The translations under genes and the position numbers were made by a program. Of a stretch of 37,901 bases of DNA, positions 1-37,901 are shown piece by piece. The notes under the pieces are model-generated. The model was not told the origin of the DNA and searched no databases. It worked only from the letters and a program-made list of their open reading frames with translations. The stretch's first letter is position 1. Each line of letters opens with the position of its first letter. Origin of the DNA: Solobacterium sp. (GTDB lineage Bacteria > Bacillota_I > Bacilli_A > Erysipelotrichales > Erysipelotrichaceae); assembly GCA_017543025.1 (NCBI GenBank), contig JAFYGX010000240.1:1-37901 (forward strand). The letters are read 5' to 3'.

Positions 1-1215
1 AAACTTCATATCCATCCGGATGATGATACTGCCCGATTGTTCCGGGAACTGACAGAGTGCTATTCGGAGGCTTGTTCCTATATCTCGGAATATGTCTTTC
101 ATCATGGTTTTATACTCAACTTCATGCTTCTTCAGGAAGAACTGTATGACGAGATCCGTGCCAGATTTGGACTAAAATCTCAGATGACAATCTCTTCCTT
201 TAAGACAGTGGCTGCACGATATAAAACTGTACGGGAACAGCTTCAGAGAAACCCATTCAAGTATCAGGATGAAGATGGTAAATGGATTTATATCTCACGG
301 ACACTTGAATGGCTTATGAAGCCGATCGTTTTTTCCAGACCGCAGGCTGATCTTGTGAGAGGGCGGGATTACAGTTTCGTTGACAACGGAACCATGATTT
401 CAGTCAATACCCTCGGTAAACGAGTCAGGGTTTCATTTGATGTGCCGGAATACTTCGAAAAATATTTTGAAAACGGTGCGACATGGTCGTTCGGCACTGC
501 GAAACTCGTATCTCTTAAAAACGAATGGTATCTGCACATCTCTGTAACGAAGACGATTTCGGATGAACCGGATACTATCAAGCCGGATCATGTTGTTGGA
601 ATTGACAGGGGATTGAGGTTTCTGGTTACCGCCTATGATGAAAAGGGAAATGTTGAGTTTGTCAGTGGTCAGGATGTTATGCGAAAGAGACAGACATTGA
701 ATAATGTCAGAGCTGAACTCCAGTCAAAAGGTACAAAATCTGCGAAACGCGCATTAAAACGTATCTCAGGACGAGAGAACCGCTGGATGTCTGATGTAAA
801 CCATCAGATTTCTAAGACACTCGTGAACAGATACGGCAGCAATGCGCTGTTTGTGATCGAAGACCTGACAGGCGTCAGTTTTGATGAACAGAATCTTTCT
901 CATCACAAAGCAAAAGGCCGGAACGAACTTCGTTCCTGGACATTCTATCAGCTTGAACAGTTTCTTACGTACAAAGCGGTTGAAGCGGGCTCATATGTGA
1001 TCAAAGTACCTGCTGATTACACCTCCCAGAGATGTCCGAAATGCGGACGTATCCACAAGGAGAACCGGAATCATGACACGCATGAATACATCTGCGATGC
1101 ATGCGGGTATAGAAGCAATGATGACCGTGTCGGTGCAATGAACCTTTACACACTTGGAACGCTGTATGTATCAGGTGACAGCAATCCTCGCTTTGGACCT
1201 CGTAAGATAAATTAA
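1..1215 (+). CDS. tnpB: RNA-guided endonuclease TnpB / IS605 OrfB (5' partial)
   Basis: TnpB is the omega-RNA-guided DNA nuclease of IS200/IS605 elements. The frame is already open at base 1 and reads KLHIHPDDDTARLFREL, which matches the usual TnpB N-terminus, so only a few residues are missing; the TTG at 37 is not a real start. About 404 residues are visible, close to full length. The RuvC-like triad looks intact: Asp in GIDRGL (604-606), Glu in FVIEDLTG (859-861), and Asp in NDDRVGAMNL near 1120-1125. A zinc finger sits between the last two motifs, with CPKCG and CDACG pairs. The element appears coding-competent. It could be a domesticated derivative, but the complete active site argues against the nuclease-dead TnpB-like repressors. 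Confidence 0.93.
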   Translation, partial: KLHIHPDDDTARLFRELTECYSEACSYISEYVFHHGFILNFMLLQEELYDEIRARFGLKSQMTISSFKTVAARYKTVREQLQRNPFKYQDEDGKWIYISRTLEWLMKPIVFSRPQADLVRGRDYSFVDNGTMISVNTLGKRVRVSFDVPEYFEKYFENGATWSFGTAKLVSLKNEWYLHISVTKTISDEPDTIKPDHVVGIDRGLRFLVTAYDEKGNVEFVSGQDVMRKRQTLNNVRAELQSKGTKSAKRALKRISGRENRWMSDVNHQISKTLVNRYGSNALFVIEDLTGVSFDEQNLSHHKAKGRNELRSWTFYQLEQFLTYKAVEAGSYVIKVPADYTSQRCPKCGRIHKENRNHDTHEYICDACGYRSNDDRVGAMNLYTLGTLYVSGDSNPRFGPRKIN

Positions 1216-3274: not shown

Positions 3275-4495
3275 TCACTTTTCGCAGGCGAAGAAGCTGA
3301 CGCCTTCGTATTTCCATCCCATTCCCTGCAGCACATTTACTTCCTTTTCACTTGCCGTATAGTGATGCATTCCGGTTTTTGCATTCGGGTTGTAGAGCCG
3401 GTATACCGAAACACTCTTCGCATCGTCGGAATACCACGCAATCCCTTCTGCGATCCACCCGAGCCGGATCAGAAACGCCCGTTCGATCTCGCTGCCGGTA
3501 TAATGATGATCTCCCGCATTCGGATTATACAGACGGAAGATCGGCTTACTGGAAATCAGCGGCGCATAGAATGCGACGCCTTCATACTTCCAGCCGCTCT
3601 GCACAAGCATCTCACGTTCTTCGATTGCCGGTGTATAGAAGTGTTCACCGGTATTCGGATTGTACATCCGGTATAAGCTGACTTTCATGGACAGACCCTG
3701 ATAGTGAATCTCTGCGGATGTAAGACAGTCATTGCCTTCCCAGACCGTAACTTTCGTCCAGGACTGATCATCCGACCCATAGTTCACATCCTTCAGCAGA
3801 AAACAGTTGTAAAACGCAAACGCACCGACCTCTTTCAGCGAAGAAGGAAGCGTAACGGTACAGATCCGGAAAAACCGGTTCCTCTCCTGCGGCTGTCCGG
3901 TCGCAAACAGATAGGAAGGCACCCGGAGCACGCCTTCACCGAATACCACTTCCACGCCTTCTTCCGCACCGGAATGATAGAATACAGAACTCTGCCAGTC
4001 AATCAGCGGAAGAATCGATTCCGCAGGCAGATCTTCCAGATAGGTGGATCGAACAGTCACTTTCTTCAGGGAACCGCATTCCGCAAAGGCGCCTCTGCCA
4101 ATCAGCTTCAGTGATTTCGGGAGCGTAACTTCTGTAATCGAAGATCCGCGGAACGCATCTTTTGTAATGGAAGTAACCGGATGGGAATCGATCACTTCCG
4201 GTATCACAGCGATCTCACCGCCGCTGTATCCGGTAATTGCCGCACCGCCTGCCGCATCAATCTGATATTCATACCCCTGCTCATCCGTCAGCTGTTCCAG
4301 TTCAGCTGCTTCTTCCGCAGTCTCATCTTCTTCCTCAATCACTTCTGTCTCCGCTGTCTCTTCTTCCGGCGGCAGCTCTGTTTCTGCTTCTTCTGCAGGT
4401 ACATCTTCCGGCTGTTCTTCCGCATAAGCAGGAACCCAGCTGATTGTGCTGAATGCCAGGATGGCACTTACGAATACTTTGGAAAATCGCATCAT
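3275..4495 (-). CDS. Secreted BspA-type LRR protein with three DUF5648-like repeats
   Basis: The 406-residue predicted secreted protein starts with a signal peptide (MMRFSKVFVSAILAFSTISW, then a likely AYA cut before EEQ). An acidic Glu-rich segment follows (about 29-75), then two or more BspA-like leucine-rich units (for example SITEVTLPKSLKLIGRGAF), and finally three C-terminal repeats beginning YRMYNPNTGEHFYT, FRLYNPNAGDHHYT and YRLYNPNAKTGMHHYT. BspA-type LRRs usually mediate adhesion; the DUF5648-like repeats have no established function that I know of, and wall or glycan binding is only a guess. GGAGGG lies five bases before ATG 4495, so the in-frame TTG further upstream (4513) is rejected. 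It is a monocistronic member of the four-paralogue cluster. No LPXTG anchor is present. Confidence 0.85.
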   Translation of the reverse strand: MMRFSKVFVSAILAFSTISWVPAYAEEQPEDVPAEEAETELPPEEETAETEVIEEEDETAEEAAELEQLTDEQGYEYQIDAAGGAAITGYSGGEIAVIPEVIDSHPVTSITKDAFRGSSITEVTLPKSLKLIGRGAFAECGSLKKVTVRSTYLEDLPAESILPLIDWQSSVFYHSGAEEGVEVVFGEGVLRVPSYLFATGQPQERNRFFRICTVTLPSSLKEVGAFAFYNCFLLKDVNYGSDDQSWTKVTVWEGNDCLTSAEIHYQGLSMKVSLYRMYNPNTGEHFYTPAIEEREMLVQSGWKYEGVAFYAPLISSKPIFRLYNPNAGDHHYTGSEIERAFLIRLGWIAEGIAWYSDDAKSVSVYRLYNPNAKTGMHHYTASEKEVNVLQGMGWKYEGVSFFACEK

Positions 4496-4563
4496 GAAAA
4501 CCCTCCGTATCAACTTTATCAGAAAAGACTGCTGAGAAACATGCTGTAGATGAACAATCTCAG

Positions 4564-4610: not shown

Positions 4611-6953
4611 TCATCCAACGCGTTTGCAGGTATAGAATCCGATGCCCTCATACGACCAGCCAACTTTGACAAGCTGGTCACGCTCTGTTTCATAAACCGT
4701 GTAATGATGAGAACCCGCACCGGTTGCGTTCTTATTGTACAGACGATAGGTCGGCACAGCATTTTCATCTGTCTTATCGGATGCGTACCAGCCGATGCCC
4801 TCATAGTTCCATCCTAATTTAATCAGATTCTCTTTTTCCGCTTCCTTCATCGTGTAATGATGATCTCCCGCATTCGGGTTATACATCCGGTAGACCGGAA
4901 TATCTGTCTTAGTCTTCACCGTAAATCCGATCCCCTCATAATTCCATCCTTTGGACACCAGATTCTTCCGCTCTTCAATACTCTTGGTATAGAAATGTTC
5001 ACCGGAATTCGGATTATAGAGCCGGTACAGGAACATCTTGCCCGGTTCCGGAGTCGGTTCGGGTGTCGGAGCCGGGGTCGGGGAAGGCGTCGGAGCCGGG
5101 GTCGGCTTATCACCAACTGTGGTATAGATGCGCATCCGAAGATCCGATTCAAGATGAGCTGTCGATTCACCGGCTTTCACATCTGCACCCGGGCCGCTCA
5201 GTGCTCCGGTATAGCTGATCGAACCGAGTGCTTCGGTTTTTTTCATTTCGGTCAGAACCTTGATATTCCCTGTCTTTTCATAAGTCACTGTCAGAGTTAC
5301 AGGTTTGCCTGATGCTTTGAACGGCTTGTCCAGCGGCAGAGAATAGAATCCCTGAAAGATTGTCTGCTGTGCGGCAGCCGCAGTATTTGTCCCGTCTGTG
5401 ACAGTCGCGGTAACCTTCAGATTAACGGATCCGGTTTCCACACCGATCGCCTGAATCGTCTCGCCTTCTGTTACATTGAAGGTCTGTGAAACAGTTACGC
5501 TGCCTTTGTCGCTGTAGGTATAAGTACCGGTTGGAACCGGAACCTTATCATAGGAATAGACATAGCTGTAAAGATCTGCTGAGGCATCATATGCAGTGAA
5601 GTAGGAATTCTTCGCAAGACTTGCGTCCAGATAGGAAAGCCAGAAGTACCCGTTCAGTCCTTCTCCTTCCAGTCCTCTGCTGTTGCGTACCAGCCATGCG
5701 CCGTCTTCTTCCGGCTGACACCCTTCCGTAAACTTCTCCTTTGAAAAGGTATCATCCCAGCCGACGAGCATGATATCTTCGACGGTAAATTTCGCCGCAT
5801 CCGCAGTCGGGGCCTCGCCATAGAATGCGTTGGTAAGCGCGTTATAGCGCACTTTATATTCCTTCGTGGCACTCTTGTAGTTATTCGGCTTGATCAGAAG
5901 CGAAGCCGTCACTGCCCCATGGTCCATGATCATCTGCTTCACATAGTTTCGATCCGCGGCTTTCGGGCTGATGAGATACGCACCGGTCAGCTGTGCCGCA
6001 TTGGAAGAAACCGCATATTTATCATCCGGCCTGAAACCCGGCCCCTTCTCCAGCGGTAGTTCCGATTCATAGACCGGTCCCACCATATTGGCAAGCATCC
6101 GGTAAGCGCGCTTTCCGTTGCCGATATTCGAGAGATACGTCTGGGCACCGCTGTATTCGATCTTATCTCCGGCATGATTGCCTTTGGGATCGGTGTAATC
6201 ATGCGAGGAAAAATAAGCCAGCTGCAGTTCTGAGTAATCAATCGTTTTTTCTGCTTTCTTATCATGGATCAGATCTGCTTCCATGGCGCCGATTGCCGCA
6301 TAGCTCCAGCCAAGCTTGTCATAATTCTGATTGCGTACAACCGGAAGATTTGGCCGGTTATCATAGGACACTCCGGGTGCCGCATACAGAAGCCCGTTAT
6401 CTTCCGGTGACTCGATTTCAAACTCCTCATCCGTCACTGCGCTTTCATCAAGGCCTTCAATGACTTCTCCGATAAACAGAATGATATGCGGAATCTTAAC
6501 CGCTTCGTTTACGGTATAACCTTCAAAAACCGGCGCAAAAACGTACTGATCTGCTTCGGCTTCATAATCCTGCAGGCAGTTCCATGTCACATTCACCCTG
6601 GTCCAGCCGGTTTCCGCAAGCACTTCAAGTGTCTGTGGAAGCGATGAAAGAAGTTCTTCCAGCGCCGGCTTTTCAGAACGGATGAGGTCTGTCATTTCCG
6701 GCGAACGGATTTCAAGAATCTGCGTTCCTTCTTCCGAAGCGACTTCCTGCAGCTCAGATTCGGTTTCTTCTTCCGGTTCTTCACTTTCTTCCGCGGATTC
6801 TTCCGGAAGTGTTTCTTCTGCAATCTCGCCGTCAGGCGTTTCTCCGCTTTCTTCCGCGATTACAGCCGCATTGCCTGTCAGAGCAGACAGCGAAAGCGCA
6901 GCTGCCAGAACCGCATGCGATACTTTTTTCTGATAAAAAAATGAATCATTCAT
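4611..6953 (-). CDS. Secreted papain-fold (C1A) pseudopeptidase with DUF5648-like repeats
   Basis: The 780-residue protein has a signal peptide (cut near AVIA|EES), a Glu-rich stretch, a beta-rich region, a C1A peptidase domain (about 195-480), a jelly-roll-like region, a PTPAPTPSPTPAP linker (about 622-645) and three C-terminal repeats (YRLYNPNSGEHFYT, YRMYNPNAGDHHYT, then a GSHHYT unit). By alignment to its neighbours the catalytic Cys is Gly215 (DKLGWSY against GSCWTF) and the catalytic His is Glu392 (VEDIMLVGWDD against DHAVMLVGWDD). Asn424 remains, but the following Trp is Arg (NSRG). It should not cleave peptides. The frame is intact over 2.3 kb, so it is kept as a protein, perhaps as a binding or regulatory decoy. 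The start ATG 6953 has GGAAGG 13 bases upstream, a loose spacing. Confidence 0.88.
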   Translation of the reverse strand: MNDSFFYQKKVSHAVLAAALSLSALTGNAAVIAEESGETPDGEIAEETLPEESAEESEEPEEETESELQEVASEEGTQILEIRSPEMTDLIRSEKPALEELLSSLPQTLEVLAETGWTRVNVTWNCLQDYEAEADQYVFAPVFEGYTVNEAVKIPHIILFIGEVIEGLDESAVTDEEFEIESPEDNGLLYAAPGVSYDNRPNLPVVRNQNYDKLGWSYAAIGAMEADLIHDKKAEKTIDYSELQLAYFSSHDYTDPKGNHAGDKIEYSGAQTYLSNIGNGKRAYRMLANMVGPVYESELPLEKGPGFRPDDKYAVSSNAAQLTGAYLISPKAADRNYVKQMIMDHGAVTASLLIKPNNYKSATKEYKVRYNALTNAFYGEAPTADAAKFTVEDIMLVGWDDTFSKEKFTEGCQPEEDGAWLVRNSRGLEGEGLNGYFWLSYLDASLAKNSYFTAYDASADLYSYVYSYDKVPVPTGTYTYSDKGSVTVSQTFNVTEGETIQAIGVETGSVNLKVTATVTDGTNTAAAAQQTIFQGFYSLPLDKPFKASGKPVTLTVTYEKTGNIKVLTEMKKTEALGSISYTGALSGPGADVKAGESTAHLESDLRMRIYTTVGDKPTPAPTPSPTPAPTPEPTPEPGKMFLYRLYNPNSGEHFYTKSIEERKNLVSKGWNYEGIGFTVKTKTDIPVYRMYNPNAGDHHYTMKEAEKENLIKLGWNYEGIGWYASDKTDENAVPTYRLYNKNATGAGSHHYTVYETERDQLVKVGWSYEGIGFYTCKRVG

Positions 6954-7083: not shown

Positions 7084-9369
7084 TTACCTGCAGGCGTAGA
7101 AACCGATGCCCTCATTCTTCCAGCCGGACGCTACCAGACTGTCACGCTCCGCAGTGCTCTTCGTATAATGATGCGAGCCTGTGGTTGCGCTCGGATTAAA
7201 CAGACGGTACATCGGTATGGACTTCGCATCATCCGCATACCAGCCGATGCCCTCGTATTTCCATCCGGTAGAAACCAGGCTGTCCCGTTCCTTTGCGTTT
7301 GACGTATAGTGGTGATCTCCGGAATTCGGGTTGTAGAGCCGGTACATCGGTGTACTGGACTTCTTCGCCGCTTTGAATCCGACACCTTCATACTTCCAGC
7401 CTGCATTCACAAGCGTCGTCCGCTCATTCATATTGCCGGTATAGAAATGTTCTCCGTTTGACGGATTATACATCCGGTACATATTCACCGTATCCGAAGT
7501 CGGAGATGGTTCCGGCGTTACCGTCGGCGTCGGCGTCGCACCTTTGGTTGTATAAAGCCTCATGCGCGCATCACATTTATAAGTAGCCCCGTTAATCTTA
7601 CATCCGGGTCCGCTCATCGCTGCGGTAAACCTGATATTTCTGGAACTGGCGCTGCCAATACCTTCCGTAACTACGCGAACAGAGCCGCTGCCTGTGTAGG
7701 TAATTGTAAGCGTCACTTTCTTTTTCTCTGTCACATTGATCGCATGTGACAGCGGCACCGAATAGAAGCCCGTATGCGTTGTCTTTTTAACCGCTGTGGA
7801 AACGGTGGAACCGTCGGAGACAGAAATCTCGACATTCAGATTCTGGGAACCTGTCTCAAAGCCGACCGCCCGGATCACTTCACCTGCATCCACCGTGTAC
7901 TCCTGTGTGACGGCTGCGGTTCTGCTGAACCGGTAGGTACGGTTCGGAAGCGGTACGGAATCATAGGAATAACAGTAGTTGTACAGTGTTTTGGTCACAT
8001 CATATGCCAGAACATTGGCAGAGTTCAGAAAACCCTTGTCATAATAGGAAAGCCAGAAATAACCGCGGATACTGTCACCCTGCTCGCCCCAGCTGTTGCG
8101 GACCAGCCATGCGCCGTTGCCGGCCGGCCGGCAGCCTGCGGTAAAATTGCTGGCAGGGAAATTATCATCCCAGCCGACGATCATTACCCGGTGATTCGTA
8201 TCATTCAGCTGACTGTAGAAGCAGTTGTTCTTCTTGTTGTATCTCACCTTATATAACTTACCGGTCTTCTTGCTTCTCCAGTTTCCGGTTCTTGCCCACA
8301 TGGAAGCGTTGACTGCACCGTGATCGCGGATCGCTTCCTTGATACTGACTGTATCTTTCGGGCTGATCAGATATGCGCCAACCGTCTGTGCCACGTTGGA
8401 AGAAACCGCATATTTCATATCCGGAACCAGAGTGTAGCCAGCAGAATACGGAACATCGGTTTCATTGACCGGACCGACATTGTTCGTCAGTGCACGATAT
8501 GCCATCGATGCAGTTCCGCCGTTGCTGAGATAGCTCGGGTTCTTGCCTTTATAGGCAGCGGTATCGCCTGTGTGGTTGTTCTTCGGATCGGTATACGTAT
8601 GAGCAGTGAAATATGCAAGCTGCAGTTCCGACAAATCGATCGACGAATTCGCAAGTCCGTCATGAATCATATCTGCTTCCAGAGAATCGATGTTCGCAAA
8701 GCTCCAGCAGGCACCTTCTTTACCCTGATTGCGCACTGCAGGAAGCGCAGCTCTTGTATCAAATTTCGAAGGAAGCGATGCGCCGAGCAGATCATCATCC
8801 CGCTGCAGTACTTCGAGTTCGTAATCCAGTTCCTCTTCGTCCTCTTCTTCCGAAACAGGACCGTACAGGCCGTCTCCGACAAAGAGATACATGAGCGGAA
8901 GTTCCGCATCTTCGCTTACCTGATATCCTTCAAATTCCGGATAGAATTCAAACTGTTCGTCATCCTGTTCGTAATCTTCCATGCATTCCCATGTGACAGG
9001 AACGTCCAGCCATTCTCCTTCATCCGTTTCTGATCCGCTTACACGGACACGCAGCACTGCTGGAAACATCGCCTTCGCTTCCGCAAGCGAGGGTTTTTCT
9101 TCTGCCTCAAAGTCTTCCGTTTCCGGTGCTTCAATCTCCCGGATCAGGCCTTCACCTTCTGTCAGTTCGGCCATCTCCGTCTCGGTTTCCGGCTCTTCCG
9201 GAATTTCCTGTGGAGCTTCTTCCGGCATTTCTTCCGATGCCAGTTCCTCTGCAGCAGTTTCGTCTTCCGGATTCTCAGCAGTTTCTTCCGCAAGCACAGA
9301 GACACTGCCCGCAAACGTACTGAGCGAAAGAGTCAGTGCCAGAAGTGATTTCAAAATTGTTCCGCTCAT
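7084..9369 (-). CDS. Secreted papain-family (C1A) cysteine peptidase with DUF5648-like repeats
   Basis: The 761-residue predicted extracellular peptidase has a signal peptide (cut near VLA|EET), a Glu-rich segment (about 28-75), a linker or propeptide-like region, and a C1A domain (about 200-470). The active site is complete: Gln in VRNQGKEGACWSF, Cys221, His393 in NHRVMIVGWDD and Asn425 in VRNSWGEQGD. A beta-sandwich-like region, a short TPTPTVTPEPSP linker and three C-terminal repeats follow (YRMYNPSNGEHFYT, YRLYNPNSGDHHYT, YRLFNPSATTGSHHYT). Bacterial relatives digest host or dietary protein; the substrate here is unknown. AAAGGGG lies six bases before ATG 9369. It has its own promoter (9428) and terminator (7026). 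Confidence 0.92.
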   Translation of the reverse strand: MSGTILKSLLALTLSLSTFAGSVSVLAEETAENPEDETAAEELASEEMPEEAPQEIPEEPETETEMAELTEGEGLIREIEAPETEDFEAEEKPSLAEAKAMFPAVLRVRVSGSETDEGEWLDVPVTWECMEDYEQDDEQFEFYPEFEGYQVSEDAELPLMYLFVGDGLYGPVSEEEDEEELDYELEVLQRDDDLLGASLPSKFDTRAALPAVRNQGKEGACWSFANIDSLEADMIHDGLANSSIDLSELQLAYFTAHTYTDPKNNHTGDTAAYKGKNPSYLSNGGTASMAYRALTNNVGPVNETDVPYSAGYTLVPDMKYAVSSNVAQTVGAYLISPKDTVSIKEAIRDHGAVNASMWARTGNWRSKKTGKLYKVRYNKKNNCFYSQLNDTNHRVMIVGWDDNFPASNFTAGCRPAGNGAWLVRNSWGEQGDSIRGYFWLSYYDKGFLNSANVLAYDVTKTLYNYCYSYDSVPLPNRTYRFSRTAAVTQEYTVDAGEVIRAVGFETGSQNLNVEISVSDGSTVSTAVKKTTHTGFYSVPLSHAINVTEKKKVTLTITYTGSGSVRVVTEGIGSASSRNIRFTAAMSGPGCKINGATYKCDARMRLYTTKGATPTPTVTPEPSPTSDTVNMYRMYNPSNGEHFYTGNMNERTTLVNAGWKYEGVGFKAAKKSSTPMYRLYNPNSGDHHYTSNAKERDSLVSTGWKYEGIGWYADDAKSIPMYRLFNPSATTGSHHYTKSTAERDSLVASGWKNEGIGFYACR

Positions 9370-9834: not shown

Positions 9835-12429
9835 TTATCTGCAGGTATAGAACCCGATGCCTTCATACTTCCACCCCGCATCAATGAGATTCTGTTTTTC
9901 CGTTTCATTGCTGGTGTAATGATGCGAACCGGTAACCGCATTCGGGTTATACAGACGATACTGCGCAACTCCCCTGTTGTCATCCGCATACCAGCCGATG
10001 CCTTCATACTTCCAGCCGGAAGCGATCAGACTGTCCTTTTCCTGCTCGCTGCGGGTGTAATGATGATCCCCGGCATTCGGGTTATAAAGACGGTACATCG
10101 GCGTATCGGAACTCAGTGGACTGCGGAATCCCACGCCTTCATACTTCCAGCCTGCATTCACCAGATTCTCACGTTCTTCCGTGCTCTTTGTATAGAAATG
10201 CTCGCCGCTGTTGGGATTATACATGCGGTACATCACTCTCGTTTCAATCCAGTTTGCCCGGTAAGTCCGGTTTCCGGTGCTTCCGGTTTCAATCCGGACA
10301 CTCCGGTTGTCATTTCCTTCGAGATCGGTTCCCGACCAGCCAAGGAAGGTATAGCCTTTTTTCTGCGGATTGAGCAGTGTGATCGGATCCGACTCGACAT
10401 TGTACTCTTCCGGGTTTTTGTCCGACACGCTTCCCCCATCGAGATCATAGCTGATCGTATAGGTGATCGGTTTTCCCTCTGCTGTGACCGTGAGATTCTT
10501 TGCGGGCATTTTGAACGGCACTTCGCTTATTTCGCTCCAGTGATCTACTTCATACCCCGTTTTGCAGGTCGCTTCCGGTTCAACCTCCGCTTCAAACAGA
10601 TAGGTGCCGCTTCCGCTCACGGATTCGATGCATTTACCGGCCTGGAAGACTGCCTGATAGCTGTTTCTGGTATAGGAATAGGTTACCGTTTCCTTTCCCG
10701 ACTCACTGATTACCACACTCTGTGCCTCCGGTGACGTAAATCCTTCCTGATCCCGCACCATCGGCGTTACTTCCGTGCCTGGCGTAAGCGTATAGAATTT
10801 CACTTCTTCAAACGTTTCAAATACGCCTTTTTCCATCGTTTCCTTCTGATGAACTGCAGTTCCGTAGATGCCTTCGCCGTCTTTCGTAAACAGCTTGACA
10901 CGGGCGTCCTTTTCATAATGTTTCGAGTTCAGGGTAAATCCCGGCCCGCTTGTCGCTCCGGTATATTCGATGCCTTTTTTTACGCTCGTGCCGTTGCCTT
11001 CCGCAAGAATGACAATCTCTGCACCTGATTCTGATTCCACGTGCAGCGAAACCGTCACATTTTTCCGTTCACTGATATACAGCGGCTTGTTCAGCACAAT
11101 TGTATAGAACCCGGCATACGATGTATGGACTGTTCCGGCTGCCGGTTCCTTCCCGTCGCTTACTTCCGCCGTCACATCAGCGTCAGCGCTGCCGATCTCA
11201 AATCCGATCCGTTCAATCCACTCATTCCCGTCCACGATATACGAAGTCGAAAGATCTGCCTTGCCGGTCTTAACCCGATATACCGTACCGGGATACGGCA
11301 CCGTATCGTAGGAATAACAATGATCCGCAGTTTCCTTCGTACCGTCATATGCCGCAACCGCAGACTTATTGACACCGGAATCTTCATAGGAAATCCAGAA
11401 ATACCCGTTGAAGCATTCGCTGTCTTTTCCCCAGCTGTTGCGGACCAGCCATGCGCCGTTTTCCTTCGGCTGCAAATCCGTGTTGAACTTCGTCCTATCA
11501 AAGTTATCGTCCCATCCCACCAGCATCACCGCATGGTCGGTCGAAGGTTCTTCACTGTAATAGTAATAGCAGTTGTTTGCTTTGTTATAGTACCGGTCTC
11601 TATCAAGCACATGCATTGCGGCTGCCACCCCGCCGTGTTCCCTGATCGCATGTTTGATGCCGTCCCGATCGGCTGCGGGAATCATAAAGGCATTTGTCAG
11701 CTGCACCGCATCGCTGCTTACCGCATACTTCATATCCGGAACAAGCGTCTCTGCCTGGTCATACGGAACATCGCTTTCGTTTACAGCGCCAACCATGCCG
11801 GCCATTGCCCGATAGGCAAAGATCGCGTTGCCGCCGTTGTCCAGATAATGCCTGGTACCGGTGTAATTAATCTCATCTCCGGTATGATTGCCCTTTGGAT
11901 CCGTATAGTTATGCGCGGTGAAATAGCCCAGCTGAAGTTCGGACAGATCGATTTCCTCTTTCCCGTAAACTCCGTCATGAATCATATCCGCTTCCAGCGC
12001 CCCGATCGAGGCAAATGTCCAGCAGGAACCGTACGGACTCTGATTCCGTACCTTCGGAAGCCCGCTTCGGGCGTCATACGCCGGTTCCAGCGGTTCACTG
12101 AACAGAAGCTCGCTGTTCCGCTGTGATTCCGGCACTTCATATTCCGGCTCCAGATCAATATAGGTCAGAAGCGATTCATCAATCACCTCTTCGTCTTCCG
12201 ACTCTTCCGGCTGTTCTTCTTCAGCCGCTTCCCCCGTTTCTTCCGTAACTTCTCCGGTTTCCTCTTCAGCCTGCGGTTCTTCTGTTTCTTCTGTTTCTGC
12301 AGCTTCTTCCGCTGTTTCAGTTATCGGTTCTTCCGTTTCTTCCGCAATCACAGGAAGCTCTGCAGCGGATACTGCCAGCCCGAATGCGAGAAGTCCACGG
12401 GCAATTCTGCCTTTGAACGTTGCTTTCAT
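9835..12429 (-). CDS. Secreted papain-family (C1A) cysteine peptidase with InlB-type and DUF5648-like repeats
   Basis: This 864-residue protein is the largest paralogue. It has a signal peptide (cut near VIA|EET), a Glu/Thr-rich acidic segment (about 30-85), and a C1A domain (about 115-380) with a complete site: Cys136 in YGSCWTF, His299 in TDHAVMLVGWDD and Asn331 in VRNSWGK. A beta region follows, then beta-grasp-like repeats (about 545-725) ending in an InlB/Listeria-Bacteroides-type unit (ISYDLDGG ... GYTFLGWSG ... YRANW), and three C-terminal repeats (YRMYNPNSGEHFYT, YRLYNPNAGDHHYT, YRLYNPNAVTGSHHYT). The InlB-type block is absent from the other paralogues. GGAGG lies four bases before ATG 12429. 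Predicted extracellular protease with surface-binding modules. Confidence 0.92.
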   Translation of the reverse strand: MKATFKGRIARGLLAFGLAVSAAELPVIAEETEEPITETAEEAAETEETEEPQAEEETGEVTEETGEAAEEEQPEESEDEEVIDESLLTYIDLEPEYEVPESQRNSELLFSEPLEPAYDARSGLPKVRNQSPYGSCWTFASIGALEADMIHDGVYGKEEIDLSELQLGYFTAHNYTDPKGNHTGDEINYTGTRHYLDNGGNAIFAYRAMAGMVGAVNESDVPYDQAETLVPDMKYAVSSDAVQLTNAFMIPAADRDGIKHAIREHGGVAAAMHVLDRDRYYNKANNCYYYYSEEPSTDHAVMLVGWDDNFDRTKFNTDLQPKENGAWLVRNSWGKDSECFNGYFWISYEDSGVNKSAVAAYDGTKETADHCYSYDTVPYPGTVYRVKTGKADLSTSYIVDGNEWIERIGFEIGSADADVTAEVSDGKEPAAGTVHTSYAGFYTIVLNKPLYISERKNVTVSLHVESESGAEIVILAEGNGTSVKKGIEYTGATSGPGFTLNSKHYEKDARVKLFTKDGEGIYGTAVHQKETMEKGVFETFEEVKFYTLTPGTEVTPMVRDQEGFTSPEAQSVVISESGKETVTYSYTRNSYQAVFQAGKCIESVSGSGTYLFEAEVEPEATCKTGYEVDHWSEISEVPFKMPAKNLTVTAEGKPITYTISYDLDGGSVSDKNPEEYNVESDPITLLNPQKKGYTFLGWSGTDLEGNDNRSVRIETGSTGNRTYRANWIETRVMYRMYNPNSGEHFYTKSTEERENLVNAGWKYEGVGFRSPLSSDTPMYRLYNPNAGDHHYTRSEQEKDSLIASGWKYEGIGWYADDNRGVAQYRLYNPNAVTGSHHYTSNETEKQNLIDAGWKYEGIGFYTCR

Positions 12430-30061: not shown

Positions 30062-30943
30062 ATGAGCTTACAGGAAATCCTTGAAAAAGACAGGGAGCGC
30101 CTGATCGCATCCCTCAGGCAGGCCGGCACCCCGGAGCGCGCCACAGCGGTCGTTGAATCGGAATATGACCGGCTGCTGTATGAATATAACGAACACTGTG
30201 AAACCGACTATGAGCGCAGATGCGCAGCGATGATTCTGCAGACCGCCCGCATGACTTCTCCCATCATTGACTGTGTCGGCGACACAAAGATCTGGGAAGC
30301 CGGCGGAAAACTGATCAGCGAAGAGAAAAAGAACGTCCGGCTGCCCGCAATACTGCTCATGGCGGGAGGCATCTGTCTGGCCATTGTTTCGATCGCTGTT
30401 CTCGCCGGACCGGAAGAAACACTGAACCGGGTTTTCGAAACACCGGCGATCGCCGTTGCGTTTGCGGCAGGTCTTGTCTGTCTGTTCTTTTCCGGACTGT
30501 TATTTTACAGAACGAAGAAAGCTTCCTACAGCGACAGGCAGCTGAAGGCGGAAAACAGGGTCGATGCGGAGAAGCTCTACCGCACCCTGCACGCGGTGAT
30601 GCTGGTGGCGGACCGGAATATCAATGATGCGGCCGCAGATAAGCGGATTGAAGAAACACAGAAAGAAAAGCAGGCCTCCTCTGCCGGCAGCTCCAGTGAT
30701 CTCTCGCTGTACAGCGATCTGCTCGAGGCACTGAATGCAAAAGACGGAGAATACGCCCTTGATCAGATTTCCAAAGTTCCCTTTTACCTGCATCAGAAAG
30801 GCATAGAAATGATGGATTACAGCGATGAATACCGCAGTTACTTTGATGTGATACCGGGTGAGAAGCGGGAAACGATCCGCCCTGCCCTGCTGAAAAACGG
30901 TCAGCTTCTGAAGAAAGGAATTGTATCTGGAGACTGGGTATGA
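30062..30943 (+). CDS. Two-TM protein of unknown function, partner of the Hsp70-like ATPase
   Basis: I do not recognise this 293-residue protein. It has a charged, helical N-terminal part (1-90), two membrane helices (about 93-115 and 128-149) and a soluble C-terminal half of about 140 residues with a helical segment and a low-complexity QASSAGSSSDL stretch (about 205-216). AAGGTG precedes ATG 30062 by eight bases. Its stop overlaps the start of the Hsp70-like gene by four bases (ATGA), so the two are translationally coupled and probably made in fixed ratio. Both termini should face the same side, likely the cytoplasm, where they could contact the ATPase. Confidence 0.8.
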   Translation: MSLQEILEKDRERLIASLRQAGTPERATAVVESEYDRLLYEYNEHCETDYERRCAAMILQTARMTSPIIDCVGDTKIWEAGGKLISEEKKNVRLPAILLMAGGICLAIVSIAVLAGPEETLNRVFETPAIAVAFAAGLVCLFFSGLLFYRTKKASYSDRQLKAENRVDAEKLYRTLHAVMLVADRNINDAAADKRIEETQKEKQASSAGSSSDLSLYSDLLEALNAKDGEYALDQISKVPFYLHQKGIEMMDYSDEYRSYFDVIPGEKRETIRPALLKNGQLLKKGIVSGDWV

Positions 30944-32856
30944 AGCGTTTTTACGGATTTGATTTAGGCGATGCGGAATCCGCCGTCGCCCTGCTGGAAA
31001 AAAACAGCGATATTCCTCCTTCCATTCTTGAGATAGAAGGCGTGCGCAGTTTCATAACCGCCTATGCGGTGCTTTCTGACGGAACCCTGCTGATCGGCGA
31101 AAACGCCTGCTATGCAAAAGGTGCGAAAAAACGCAGGCTGCGCTTCAAGTCACACTTTCTGAAAGACCCTTCCATTGAAAATGACATCCGCAGTTTTTCT
31201 GCCGGCGTGCTTGGCGAACTGTACGGCAGCGGCGACCTTCTGCGGAATGATGAAGAATCCTGTTTCTATATCGGCTGCCCGGCCGGCTGGAACCGAAACG
31301 ACAGAGAGCGCTACCGCGGTATTTTTGAGCGGGTCGGCTATCCGCCTGTCAAGGTGATTTCCGAATCAAGAGCCGCACTGGTATCCGCCTGTCAGTCCAA
31401 ACACCTTCAGATCGGCTATGATATCCTATCAAGACCGATGCTGGTAGTGGATATCGGTTCTTCCACCACCGACTTTGCCTATATCAATCACGGAAAGGAA
31501 GTGGAGATGCGCACCGGCGGTGAAGTGGCGCTCGGCGGCGGCATCATGGATGAGCTGCTGCTGGAATATGCCGTGGAACATTCCGACAATCAGAAGAAGA
31601 TCCGAAAGATCTTTGAAGAATCGGAGGCCTGGAAAAACTACTGTGAATTCTCCTGCCGCAGAGTCAAGGAAAAATACTATTCCGATCCGGAATATTTCCT
31701 TGATCACGAATGCCGTGACTCGGTGCTGATCCGTCAGACCTTTCCGCCTGTCAGGCTTGTGATTGAAATGAACCGGACGATTGCGGATCATCTGGAAAAC
31801 GGTGCCAGCAGCCGGCTGGACGGTTCTTCCTTTCACGAAGTATTTACTGCTTCCCTTCAGAGCGTGCGGCAGTCAATCAGCGATTCCCTGCCCGATCTTC
31901 TGTTTCTGACCGGCGGTGTTTCAAAGATGCCGGGCATCCGGGACTGGTGCTGTTCGGTATTCCCCGAAGCGATTGTAATCACCGGAGCTGAGCCGGAATT
32001 CGCAGTCGCCCGCGGTCTTTCCTGGACGGGACGCATTGATGAGGAACTGCGGGAATTCCGGGCAGAGATCCAGCAACTCAACGAAACGACAACCGTCGAA
32101 CAGATCGTCGAAGCCCATATCAACGACCTGTACCGGGATATCGTGGAGACCATGACAAAACCGATCATCCGCAATGCGGCTGTTCCGGTCTTCAACCGCT
32201 GGCGCAATGGCGAAATCCGTAAGCTTACCGATACCAATGAGGCACTCGAAAAAGAGATCGCGGTATATCTTCAGACCGATGAAGCCAGAGAACTGATGGT
32301 CACGCCGATCACCGAGTGGCTGAAACCGATTGCCGAGCAGCTGGAAGAATATACCGTACCTATCTGTATCCGCCACAATGTGCCCTATACCGCACTGAGT
32401 CTGAAATCCTATCTGAAGATCAGTGATCTGGATGTGAAGATCAGCGCAAAAGATGTCTTTGCGGTCACTGAGATCACACTGCTGATTGATTCGATTATTT
32501 CCATCATCGTCGGACTTCTGTGCGGCGGCAGCGGAATCGCACTCATCGCAAGCGGGCCGACCGGTATTTTTGCCGGTATGATGATCTCCATTCTCGTACT
32601 TGCCCTTGGCAAGGACAAGATGGAAGAGCTGCTGCTGAAGACTGATCTTCCCCGACCGCTCCGCAAACTCCTGCCGAAAAATACGATCGAATCCCGGCTG
32701 GATGCGATCTCTTCGGAAGTCCGCACAAATCTCTATCACACGCTGGAAAATGAAAAGAATGAGGAGATCAAAACCAGGCTGAGTCAGGAGATCTCCGCCC
32801 AGATCGAAGAATGTCTGACGCGGATGGCGGAAGTCGTTGAGATTCCGCTTGGCTGA
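30940..32856 (+). CDS. Hsp70/actin-fold ATPase with helical C-terminus and membrane hairpin
   Basis: In this 638-residue protein, residues 1-360 look like an Hsp70-type nucleotide-binding domain. The phosphate 1 loop is YGFDLGDAESAVALLE (5-20), phosphate 2 is VVDIGSSTTDFAYI (169-182), and the adenosine motif is FLTGGVSKMPG (322-332). The canonical GIDLGTTNS is altered (FDLGDAES). No DnaK-type beta-sandwich substrate domain follows. Instead there are helices (about 365-470), a hydrophobic hairpin (about 511-557, ALIASGPTGIFAGMM at the turn) and a charged helical end. It should therefore be membrane-bound. Coupled to the two-TM gene upstream by ATGA overlap. Not DnaK; function unknown. Confidence 0.85.
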   Translation: MKRFYGFDLGDAESAVALLEKNSDIPPSILEIEGVRSFITAYAVLSDGTLLIGENACYAKGAKKRRLRFKSHFLKDPSIENDIRSFSAGVLGELYGSGDLLRNDEESCFYIGCPAGWNRNDRERYRGIFERVGYPPVKVISESRAALVSACQSKHLQIGYDILSRPMLVVDIGSSTTDFAYINHGKEVEMRTGGEVALGGGIMDELLLEYAVEHSDNQKKIRKIFEESEAWKNYCEFSCRRVKEKYYSDPEYFLDHECRDSVLIRQTFPPVRLVIEMNRTIADHLENGASSRLDGSSFHEVFTASLQSVRQSISDSLPDLLFLTGGVSKMPGIRDWCCSVFPEAIVITGAEPEFAVARGLSWTGRIDEELREFRAEIQQLNETTTVEQIVEAHINDLYRDIVETMTKPIIRNAAVPVFNRWRNGEIRKLTDTNEALEKEIAVYLQTDEARELMVTPITEWLKPIAEQLEEYTVPICIRHNVPYTALSLKSYLKISDLDVKISAKDVFAVTEITLLIDSIISIIVGLLCGGSGIALIASGPTGIFAGMMISILVLALGKDKMEELLLKTDLPRPLRKLLPKNTIESRLDAISSEVRTNLYHTLENEKNEEIKTRLSQEISAQIEECLTRMAEVVEIPLG

Positions 32857-34952: not shown

Positions 34953-35250
34953 CAGCAGCTTCCTGTTCCCTGTGCCAGTCCACGCACCGTTCTCTTTCGC
35001 AATTGCCGCTTCGTATGTCTGTCTGAAACAGCAGAGGACATTCTTTCCTGCCGGTTTATCTGATCAGCAGCCGGTCAAAAAAAATGCCTTACAGTCTGAT
35101 CGAACTGACATTGCCTTTAAAGAGCCTGCATTCCCCTGAATTTCTGAGTTGATCTGCTTTCCGTTCTGCCCCTGTCCGGCTTCCTTTCAGCACCTGCATT
35201 TCTGCTTCTGAAGTACAGTCTGTCCGAACATCATAAAAGCATGCATACAG
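34953..35250. other. Intergenic stretch, nothing recognisable
   Basis: The roughly 300 bases between the gamma-CA-like gene and the carB-dapF terminator hold no convincing reading frame, RNA gene or promoter. An AGGAACA / TGTTCCCT inverted repeat around the gamma-CA stop has no T-run. A direct repeat of CCGGC near 35060-35085 is probably chance. Confidence 0.5.
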
Positions 35251-35289
35251 AAAAAACAGCCTTAGCCAGTGTAAACTGATTCAGGCTGT
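35251..35289 (-). terminator. Terminator of the carB-dapF fusion gene
   Basis: On the minus strand ACAGCCT ... AGGCTGT form the base of an imperfect stem, with an inner CAGT / ACTG hairpin, followed by six T, starting 13 bases past the stop. Confidence 0.75.
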
Positions 35290-35301
35290 CTGCTTCATTT
35301 C

Positions 35302-37901
35302 TCAATAACGGAAGGTTCCTTCAAATACAACCGATGCGCCGCCGGTCAATGTGACCCTGCCGTCTTTTACCAGCACCTTCATGTCACCGCCCGGCAGTTT
35401 GACCGTGATATCGCGGCCTTCCATACAGTAACCGCATCGCACAGCCGCAGCTGCCGCTGCACAGGCACCGGTACCGCAGGCAAGCGTCGCTCCGTTTCCC
35501 CTCTCCCATACGCGGATGCGCAGGGTGCAGGGGTCAACGATCCGAACAAATTCAACATTGATGCGGTCCGGAAACAGATCCGCATGTTCGATCAGCGGCC
35601 CGACGGTTTCCAGCGGAATCGTATCGATTTCTTCCCGGAAGATCACACAGTGCGGATTGCCGATCGAGAGACAGGTCACCGGCATGATCTCCTGCGCAAG
35701 CAGCACCGGCGTTTCAATCAGTTCGCTGGCGGTGGTCCTGACCGGAATCACAGAAGGTTCGTAGCTCACTTCACCCATTTCCACAGATGCAGTACCGACT
35801 TTTCCTTCATTGGTATAGACATGCACCGTTTTGTTTCCATCGGCCGTTTCAATTACAAGAACATCCTTGCGCACAATCTCCCGGTCATAAAGATATTTGG
35901 CGATACAGCGAAGATTATTTCCTGCCATCTTTCCTTCTGTTCCGTCCCGGTTGAAGCTTCGCATCTTCGCATCCGCGGTATCTGAATGCTCAATCAGCAC
36001 AATGCCGTCTGCGCCGATGCCGTAATGCGGCTCACACAGCGTTACACAGAGGGACTCCGGACAGGTAATGCGGTCGTCATAGTTTTCAATGAAGATATAA
36101 TCATTGCCGCAGTCATGCATCTTGGTAAACGGAATTGTTTCCGTCTGTTTCCGCATGCGGGTAATGTCAACCAGCTCAGTGTTGTCATTCGTAAACCGGC
36201 TGGCAATCATGTCACAGAGCGCATTGGCCGTATCAACGCTGGTCAGGCACGGGATATTCTCCAGCATCGCTTTCTTATGCAATGCAGTATAATCGCCCAT
36301 TGTCTCGTCCTTGATCGCTCCGGTATAGATGATATAGCTGAGAGTCCCTTCATCCATCAGGTTAACGATCGCATCGCTTTCGGTCGCATTTGGTACCGGC
36401 GTCACCGCAAGTCCCATTGCCGCAATCGTCTCTGCCGTACCGGTTGTCGCATAGAGCTTCATCCCGAGATCATGAAGTTTCTTCGCCACATCCAGAATCT
36501 CCTGATAATCATGGGAATCCACACTGATCAGCACACCGTTATGGCCTTCTTCATGAAGCCTCGGAACCCTGAAGCCGGCAGCTGTCAGACCTTTGAACAG
36601 TGCTTCCGGCAAAGTCCGGCCAATCCCGAGCACCTCACCGGTACTCTTCATTTCCGGTCCGAGAATCGAATTGGCGTCACTCAGCTTCTCAAAGGAGAAT
36701 ACCGGTACTTTCACACAATAATACGGCGGCACCGGGTGAAGCCCGGTCCCGCAGCCAAGCTCCTTCAGCGTCCTGCCAAGCATCACCTTGGAGGCAAGAT
36801 CAACCATCGGAACCCCGGTCACTTTGGAAATATACGGAATTGTCCGGCTTGCCCGCGGATTCACTTCAATCACATACAGTTCTCCGCCGTAGATCAGATA
36901 CTGAATATTGACAAGCCCCTTTGTCTTCATCGCAAGCGTCAGCTGTTCCGACACCGCGATCACCCGCTGACGCTCCCGGTCGTTGAGATTGTATGGCGGA
37001 TATACCGCAATCGAGTCACCGGAATGCACGCCTGCCCGCTCGATATGTTCCATGATTCCGGGAATCAGCACATCCGTCCCGTCCGAAATCACGTCCACTT
37101 CCAGCTCGGTGCCCGGAAGATACTGATCGATCAGCACCGGATTCTCAATGCCCTGCGCCAGAATGCGCTTCATGTATTCAACCGTATCTTCTTCGCTATG
37201 GGCAATCGTCATGTTCTGGCCGCCGATGACATATGAAGGCCGCAGCAGAACCGGATAGCCGATCGCCTCTGCAGCTTCCTTCGCCTCTTCCAGCGTCATG
37301 ACCGCACAGCCTTTCGGCCGCTTTACCTGAAGGCTTTCCAGCAATGCGTCAAACCGTTCCCGGTCTTCCGCAAGATCGATGCTTTGTGCAGAGGTGCCAA
37401 GAATCCGGATGCCTTTCTGGTCCAGAAACGAGGTCAGCTTGATCGCAGTCTGGCCGCCGAACGCCACTACAACCCCGGCCGGCTGCTCCACCTGAATGAT
37501 ATTCCAGACATCTTCCGGACAGAGCGGTTCAAAATACAGACGGTCTGCGGTATCAAAATCGGTGGATACCGTCTCCGGATTGTTATTGACAATGACCACA
37601 TCATACCCGAGCTTCCGCAGCGTCCAGACGCAATGCACGGAAGAATAGTCAAACTCAATCCCCTGACCGATCCGGATCGGACCGGAACCGAGCACCATGA
37701 TGACCTCTTTCCCGCTTCGCGCAAGACTTCTCGCTTCGCATTCCTGATCTACGGATGAGTAGAAATACGGGGTCTCTGCAGAAAACTCCGCTGCACACGT
37801 ATCGACCATCTTATAGCTGAAGGAACAGCCCGGCACTTCACTGACGCCGGCAAGCCGCTTCAGCGCTTCATCCGTATAACCGAGTTTCTTACCCTCACGG
37901 T
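35302..37901 (-). CDS. carB: Carbamoyl-phosphate synthase large subunit (C-terminal half) fused to a DapF-like domain (5' partial)
   Basis: The frame runs off the right edge; the last 21 codons before it read into the conserved CarB middle region (LGYTDEALKRLAGVSEVPG), so the GTG at 37836 is not the start. Counting from 37836, residues 1-380 are the second ATP-grasp unit (LGSGPIRIGQGIEFDYS, NNNPETVSTD, FGGQTAIKL, EVNPRASRTIPYISK). About 420-550 is the MGS-type allosteric domain (GMKLYATTGTAETI). From about 566 to 844 a complete DapF-sized domain follows with no stop or shift (IPFTKMHDCGNDYIFIEN, GNPHCVIF, RGNGATLACGTGACA). DapF Cys787 is present, but the other catalytic Cys is Ala638 (GKMAGNNLRC). 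CarB makes carbamoyl phosphate for arginine and pyrimidines; DapF belongs to lysine/DAP synthesis. Confidence 0.93.
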   Translation of the reverse strand, partial: REGKKLGYTDEALKRLAGVSEVPGCSFSYKMVDTCAAEFSAETPYFYSSVDQECEARSLARSGKEVIMVLGSGPIRIGQGIEFDYSSVHCVWTLRKLGYDVVIVNNNPETVSTDFDTADRLYFEPLCPEDVWNIIQVEQPAGVVVAFGGQTAIKLTSFLDQKGIRILGTSAQSIDLAEDRERFDALLESLQVKRPKGCAVMTLEEAKEAAEAIGYPVLLRPSYVIGGQNMTIAHSEEDTVEYMKRILAQGIENPVLIDQYLPGTELEVDVISDGTDVLIPGIMEHIERAGVHSGDSIAVYPPYNLNDRERQRVIAVSEQLTLAMKTKGLVNIQYLIYGGELYVIEVNPRASRTIPYISKVTGVPMVDLASKVMLGRTLKELGCGTGLHPVPPYYCVKVPVFSFEKLSDANSILGPEMKSTGEVLGIGRTLPEALFKGLTAAGFRVPRLHEEGHNGVLISVDSHDYQEILDVAKKLHDLGMKLYATTGTAETIAAMGLAVTPVPNATESDAIVNLMDEGTLSYIIYTGAIKDETMGDYTALHKKAMLENIPCLTSVDTANALCDMIASRFTNDNTELVDITRMRKQTETIPFTKMHDCGNDYIFIENYDDRITCPESLCVTLCEPHYGIGADGIVLIEHSDTADAKMRSFNRDGTEGKMAGNNLRCIAKYLYDREIVRKDVLVIETADGNKTVHVYTNEGKVGTASVEMGEVSYEPSVIPVRTTASELIETPVLLAQEIMPVTCLSIGNPHCVIFREEIDTIPLETVGPLIEHADLFPDRINVEFVRIVDPCTLRIRVWERGNGATLACGTGACAAAAAAVRCGYCMEGRDITVKLPGGDMKVLVKDGRVTLTGGASVVFEGTFRY

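Follow-up and report, generated by a model that had tools for sequence, protein, structure and literature searches.

The stretch of DNA analysed here (the window) comprises 37,901 nucleotides from Solobacterium sp. (GCA_017543025.1, contig JAFYGX010000240.1, positions 1 to 37,901, forward strand). It carries a minus-strand reading frame (35302..37899, 865 codons) that runs without interruption and whose 5' end lies beyond the window edge. In order, the frame encodes the C-terminal half of CarB, which is the large chain of carbamoyl-phosphate synthetase (CPSase), the MGS domain, an 18-residue linker, and a domain resembling the diaminopimelate (DAP) epimerase DapF. The features of this gene are as follows.

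36760..37899, minus strand: CarB C-terminal half (pre-ATP-grasp and second ATP-grasp; residues 1-380), from the open reading frame, Pfam, and NCBIfam
36241..36501, minus strand: MGS-like allosteric domain of CarB, residues 467-553 (PF02142, 43 bits)
36142..36195, minus strand: linker between MGS and DapF, residues 569-586 (translation, with domain ends from Pfam and NCBIfam)
35305..36141, minus strand: DapF-like domain, residues 587-865, 279 amino acids (Pfam, NCBIfam, structure model, and fold matches)
35923..35925, minus strand: codon GCA for Ala659 (domain position 73), in the place of catalytic Cys73 (alignment)
35650..35652, minus strand: His750 (domain position 164), in the place of catalytic His159, kept (alignment; role of His159 from an excerpt of PMC3581254)
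35500..35505, minus strand: Glu799-Arg800 (domain positions 213-214), in the place of Glu208-Arg209, kept (alignment)
35476..35478, minus strand: Cys808 (domain position 222), in the place of catalytic Cys217, kept (alignment)
35302..35304, minus strand: stop codon TGA (translation of the frame)
35250..35296, minus strand: terminator-like hairpin and U run after the stop (folding energy −19.7 kcal/mol, z −2.92)

Pfam placed CPSase_L_D1 at residues 65-175, CPSase_L_D2 at 179-380, and MGS at 467-553 of the frame, and the NCBIfam CarB model NF003671 matched residues 4-568 with 655 bits; the second ATP-grasp half and the MGS domain of a CarB are thus both present. The first ATP-grasp half would lie beyond the window edge and is present in the full-length relatives P0002 and L011. 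The DapF-like domain scored 173.9 bits with Pfam DAP_epimerase (PF01678; cut-off 34.7) and 260.2 bits with NCBIfam TIGR00652 (cut-off 114.65) over residues 590-863. Its predicted structure had a predicted local distance difference test score (pLDDT) of 89.6 and a predicted template modelling score (pTM) of 0.88, and a fold search with the domain returned solved DapF structures. The model of the whole window protein had a pTM of 0.64, and we draw no claim about domain packing from it. A preliminary description, made from the DNA letters alone, had proposed an uninterrupted CarB–MGS–DapF frame with a DapF domain of about 279 residues that ends at its own stop and terminator. The open reading frame, Pfam, and NCBIfam bear out the frame, the domain order, and the domain length, and the stop or frameshift near position 36140 that it had named as speaking against a fusion is absent. 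Of CarB, only the C-terminal half lies within the window. A simple consensus scan found no terminator 3' of the frame, but the hairpin and U run listed above fold there.

The CarB-DapF fusion is real. P0002 (1343 amino acids, on a different contig) has the same architecture, with a DapF region 94% identical to that of the window, and at all 80 relatives' loci the open frame extends 39 to 1,226 residues upstream of the DapF domain, most of the shorter extensions being cut by contig ends. These observations rule out a sequencing or assembly slip and a chance fusion.

The catalytic residues of Haemophilus DapF are Cys73, His159, Glu208, and Cys217, as given in part of PMC3581254. The alignment shows that the window domain has Ala where solved DapFs carry the first catalytic Cys (domain position 73, residue 659), and that it keeps the second Cys together with His750 and Glu799 at the places of the catalytic His and Glu. 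The equivalents of Asn11, Asn64, Asn157, Asn190, and Arg209, which we take to be substrate-contact residues of DapF, are likewise present in the window domain and occur in 142 to 147 of the 147 de-replicated domains that share Ala at position 73 (the Ala group). Across this group, Asn64, His164, Asn195, Glu213, Arg214, Cys222, Gly223, and Thr224 are invariant, Asn162 is found in 144, and Asn13 in 142; the group was defined by Ala73, so the position-73 column itself is uninformative. Fusions with Gly73 or Ser73 also keep the remaining pocket residues. At positions 10 (Ser or Asp) and 76 (Asn), which neighbour the site of the lost Cys, the Ala group differs from other DapFs. The ratio of nonsynonymous to synonymous substitution rates (dN/dS) was 0.016 to 0.180 for the listed Ala-type pairs, indicating purifying selection on the domain.

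Two protein searches, with the window protein and with a second fusion (L199) as queries, were restricted to candidates whose length was 0.55 to 1.75 times that of the query and scored the DapF part alone; stand-alone DapF is excluded because of this length limit. The window protein gave at least 5,245 matches among 7,994 scored candidates, and L199 gave 6,474 among 7,267, two sets that may overlap. We inspected the best 120 of each, and all had CPSase or MGS domains together with PF01678, except P0206, which has PF05544 instead; 92 of the 120 in the window set and 96 of the 120 in the L199 set are 1330-1365 amino acids long. At position 73, the best 120 of the 5,245 fused-length matches to the window protein carry Ala (119) or Gly (1), whereas the best 120 of the 6,474 to L199 all carry Cys. 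We refer to the two kinds as Ala-type and Cys-type. A survey of the class of G017 found a DapF match in a frame of more than 600 amino acids in 24 of 148 genomes, with Cys in 12, Ala in 7, Gly in 3, and Ser in 1 at this position; the remaining fusion, in G175, is cut before position 73, and that of G017 is also locus L024. All 80 domains of the locus scan have Ala, a count biased by the use of EGKMAGNN as one of its six patterns; the two protein searches and the class survey are free of this bias. Among frames classed as stand-alone, 94 of 98 have Cys at position 73, and the three with Ala (L047, L053, and L120) are contig-edge pieces of fused genes. One stand-alone DapF-like frame, L217 in G175, has Ser at both catalytic cysteine places.

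The closest relatives come from Solobacterium and other Erysipelotrichaceae metagenome-assembled genomes (MAGs) of ruminant guts, followed by Clostridia. Source names among the matches listed are mostly "carbamoyl-phosphate synthase large subunit", and a few partial ones are "diaminopimelate epimerase". In the class of G002, for which genomes of at least 90% completeness were requested, 1 of 120 genomes has a fusion, namely G002 itself. The thousands of fused-length matches rule out the reading of the fusion as a rare curiosity. A framing of the fusion as something rare, by which CPSase acquires a DAP enzyme, is not supported: fused-length proteins are numerous, and in the subfamily of the window gene the domain is probably not an epimerase. 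A search of the open-access literature, with subscription journals and the architecture pages of protein databases outside its scope, found no paper on a CarB-DapF fusion or on a disabled DapF; the fusion is common but apparently undescribed. Some longer fusions (L018, P0053, P0060, P0065, and P0104) have an N-terminal CarA domain (PF00988) ahead of CarB::DapF.

The two types have different gene neighbours. Sequence covering 8 kb upstream of the domain was available for 57 Ala-type loci; one or more of argJ, argB, argD, and argF occur at 52 of these, argF at 50, and carA at 54, and the typical operon is argJ-argB-argD-argF-carA-carB (the operon genes of L011 were verified by hidden Markov models and those of the remaining loci by tblastn). 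The region upstream of the window gene lies beyond the window edge, and its relatives mostly occupy such an arginine-operon position. At three loci (L024, L033, and L040), argF was found and carA was not. Around Cys-type fusions, argF is found at none of nine loci with flanks, one of which (L224) ends inside carA. The Cys-type fusion directly adjoins dapL in G279, G214, G181, and G156 (4 of 12 survey genomes), and a single gene separates the two in G185; other neighbours are purF or purC (G156, G185, and G186) and thrC (G210, G237, and G287). The idea that the fusion joins lysine or DAP synthesis to pyrimidine or arginine supply suits the Cys-type, with four fusions beside dapL and one more a gene away; the Ala-type, to which the window gene belongs, sits in arginine operons at most loci with a flank.

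A tree of 53 CarB sequences placed the 34 fused ones in one clade (support 100/100) apart from the 19 unfused ones, all of which come from fusion-bearing genomes, and united the 15 arg-operon Ala-type sequences in one clade (100/100). FA_L064 and U_L250 were dropped from the final tree, having had a branch length of 10 earlier and being taken for wrong-frame picks. A single origin of the fusion is supported by these sequences. The DapF-domain tree also has all fused sequences on one side of a branch, with a support of only 49. A second Ala case, L205 in G229, in whose flank the queries detected neither carA nor an arg gene, is positioned among Cys-type sequences, as are the Gly (L192 and L190/L193) and Ser (L203) cases. 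Because of these positions, the first cysteine was lost at least twice, and about five times on these trees. A single origin of Ala73 was rejected by the approximately unbiased (AU) test (p-AU 0.0025), with the caveat that the constrained group was named after the tree had been seen. One contig of G199 (L232 1-9000, G199:C102) has the order purF-carA-carB-dapF-dapL, with carB and dapF separate and nearly touching, and G199 also carries a Cys-type fusion. This unfused order is one step from the fusion; it is a parallel and not its ancestor, because the tree places the CarB of G199 with the unfused ones.

We counted dapF, ddh, and second carB genes in the relatives' genomes, which are all of MAG grade, with completeness not stated. 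A separate DapF is present in 23 of 33 Ala-type genomes and has its catalytic cysteines intact in all 23, and meso-DAP dehydrogenase (Ddh) is found in 7 of the 10 without one. In seven of the 23 (G016, G019, G022, G025, G027, G030, and G032), the sole separate DapF is of a divergent kind (181 to 227 bits). This second stand-alone DapF-like kind (L114-L119, L121, and L122; approximately 181-227 bits) mostly has the motif GEMCGNGARC and occurs in several Ala-type genomes. In a search for dapL of the TIGR03542 kind only, 13 of 33 Ala-type genomes were positive; all 13 also have a separate Cys-intact DapF, which lies within 60 bp of dapL in 11. No sampled genome therefore needs the Ala-type domain to epimerise for DapL. 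All 12 Cys-type genomes have DapL, and only 3 of them have a separate DapF. The dapL comparison (13 of 13) is cleaner than the association of cysteine loss with a separate DapF, yet it had no Ala-only counter-case on which to fail. A CarB match outside the fused gene was found in 28 of 33 Ala-type and 8 of 12 Cys-type genomes.

Judged by these comparisons, the window gene is apparently the end of an arginine-type CPSase large chain with an extra C-terminal domain of DapF fold. The Ala-type domain has very probably lost epimerase activity, because one of two essential cysteines is gone: enzymes of this class need both, and PddB, a relative of DapF, was inactive once its catalytic cysteines had been mutated (PMC8225329). 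We would not file the window domain as a DAP epimerase, since it departs from the two-cysteine rule, a defining feature of DapF.

We somewhat favour a course in which a bifunctional CarB::DapF became an arginine-specific CPSase with a disabled epimerase that is probably a ligand-binding regulatory domain. The ancestor would have been a working bifunctional CarB::DapF; the arg-operon lineage would then have gained another meso-DAP route, after which the domain would have ceased epimerising and persisted, next to the allosteric MGS domain, as a module that binds a ligand. The Ala-type domain may still bind an amino acid in a closed pocket without epimerising it. DAP or a DAP-like amino acid, bound without turnover, would tune carbamoyl-phosphate synthesis for arginine, and as the domain sits straight after MGS, ligand binding could alter CPSase activity or assembly. 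Whether ligand-dependent regulation is the role of the domain seems to us evenly balanced. DAP is the first candidate ligand because the residues that we take to hold its far end are unchanged, and we put it forward tentatively; it is equally tentative that, in a large group of gut Clostridia and Erysipelotrichaceae, a disabled DAP epimerase on the arg-operon CPSase binds diaminopimelate and adjusts carbamoyl-phosphate synthesis. The preliminary description had offered two roles, sensing a ligand or tethering an enzyme; the loss of Cys73 from an otherwise kept pocket favours the first.

Several observations weigh against this regulatory reading. Neither a separate DapF nor Ddh was found in 3 of the 33 Ala-type genomes (MAGs). 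The proposition that Cys is lost wherever a backup DapF exists was rejected as only a tendency: a separate DapF occurs in 3 of 12 Cys-type versus 6 of 11 Cys-lost survey genomes (p 0.21), and the pooled genomes give p 0.018, or p 0.19 if the seven with only the divergent DapF are counted as being without. Five of the 57 Ala-type loci (L027, L032, L059, L068, and L072) have carA and no arg genes, and the independent Ala fusion in G229 has no arg gene nearby. The dN/dS of the DapF domain is mostly somewhat above that of CarB. Finally, the strict conservation of Cys222, His164, and Glu213 exceeds what mere binding would need and points to some chemistry.

The last point leads to the chief rival, a one-cysteine enzyme in which Cys222 would be the sole base, together with His164 and Glu213, for a one-base reaction such as an elimination, a dehydration, or a one-sided proton exchange; its substrate would be an amino acid, perhaps one close to arginine or ornithine metabolism. 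According to a review (PMC8142540), glutamate racemases still carry out elimination on chloroglutamates after replacement of an active-site Cys by Ser, and DapF also catalyses eliminations, both of which suit such an enzyme. Among the related folds are 3-hydroxyproline dehydratases; the loss is confined to position 73, with Cys222, His164, Glu213, and Arg214 in 147 of 147 domains; and the Ala-group-specific changes at positions 10 and 76 flank the site. However, no partner gene for such a reaction was found beside the arg operons with the named queries searched, and the retention of the presumed DAP contacts gives no hint of a new substrate. We regard this enzyme as unlikely. Less likely again is an assembly domain, whose dimer or partner contacts would set the oligomeric state of CPSase and whose pocket would be a relic of fold constraint. 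The domain is conserved as a whole, and E. coli DapF has been crystallised in a regulator complex with RppH (6d13 and 6vck), a non-epimerase role, but conservation peaks at the pocket residues, beyond the needs of a pure scaffold.

It is very improbable that the domain is still a working DAP epimerase in which another residue, the nearest by sequence being Cys11, replaces Cys73. The other pocket residues are intact and Cys11 occurs in 125 of the 147 Ala-group domains, but it is not invariant, and 38 of 63 domains that retain Cys73 have it as well; the 13 Ala-type genomes with dapL all keep a separate Cys-intact DapF, and mutation of either catalytic Cys abolished PddB activity in the excerpt of PMC8225329. 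A neutral relic, a dead epimerase kept since CarB would fold poorly without its C-terminus, hardly deserves credence in spite of the recurrent loss of Cys73 on several branches, given the dN/dS values and the near-invariant pocket of the Ala group.

The fused protein can be set against known systems. The window domain agrees with DapF (TIGR00652, PF01678) in profile score, whole fold, second Cys, His, Glu, and contact residues, and differs in having Ala for the first catalytic Cys and in being fused to CarB. With CarB (TIGR01369, NF003671) the fused protein shares, in relatives, the full architecture (L011, 1375 bits) and the arg-operon position with carA; it differs in the approximately 280 extra residues after MGS and in forming a clade separate from the 19 unfused sequences in the sample. 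Cys-type CarB::DapF proteins (L199, L188, and L191) have the same domain order and belong to the same CarB clade, but they keep Cys73 (120 of 120 in the best 120 of 6,474) and lie near dapL, purF, purC, or thrC. The fold is also that of O-ureidoserine racemase, PddB, CntK, other pyridoxal phosphate-independent DapF-fold racemases, and 3-hydroxyproline dehydratases; those racemases use two cysteines, as an excerpt of PMC8225329 has it, and none of these listed racemases and dehydratases is part of a CPSase. Under the label "carbamoyl-phosphate synthase large subunit", used in most of the source names listed, the fusion covers two distinct things: an enzyme that probably has two activities and, on an arginine-type CPSase, a domain that is probably a disabled epimerase. 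Annotation based on profiles would give both types the name DapF, and a genome could then be credited with a meso-DAP route although its Ala-type fusion provides none. Should the domain bind DAP, a classic regulated enzyme would have a new allosteric input, one that ties arginine supply directly to precursors of the cell wall and of lysine. The same catalytic residue has been lost repeatedly with the rest of the site kept.

Elsewhere in the window, three neighbouring minus-strand genes (4611-6953, 7084-9369, and 9835-12429) encode secreted-looking proteins that share a C-terminal DUF5648, and the outer two match papain-family peptidase. The first (4611-6953) has Gly for the motif Cys (KLGWSYA versus GACWSFA and GSCWTFA), with no peptidase match at 1e-5, and is likely a dead protease paralogue. 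A fourth DUF5648 protein, with BspA-type leucine-rich repeats, adjoins these three (3275-4513, minus strand). An OrfB_IS605 / Cas12f1-like TNB protein of the TnpB kind lies at the window edge (1-1215, plus strand). The plus-strand gene at 30940-32856, preceded by one for a 293-residue protein, encodes 638 amino acids that weakly match an Hsp70-type ATPase (29 bits) and end in a hydrophobic C-terminal part.
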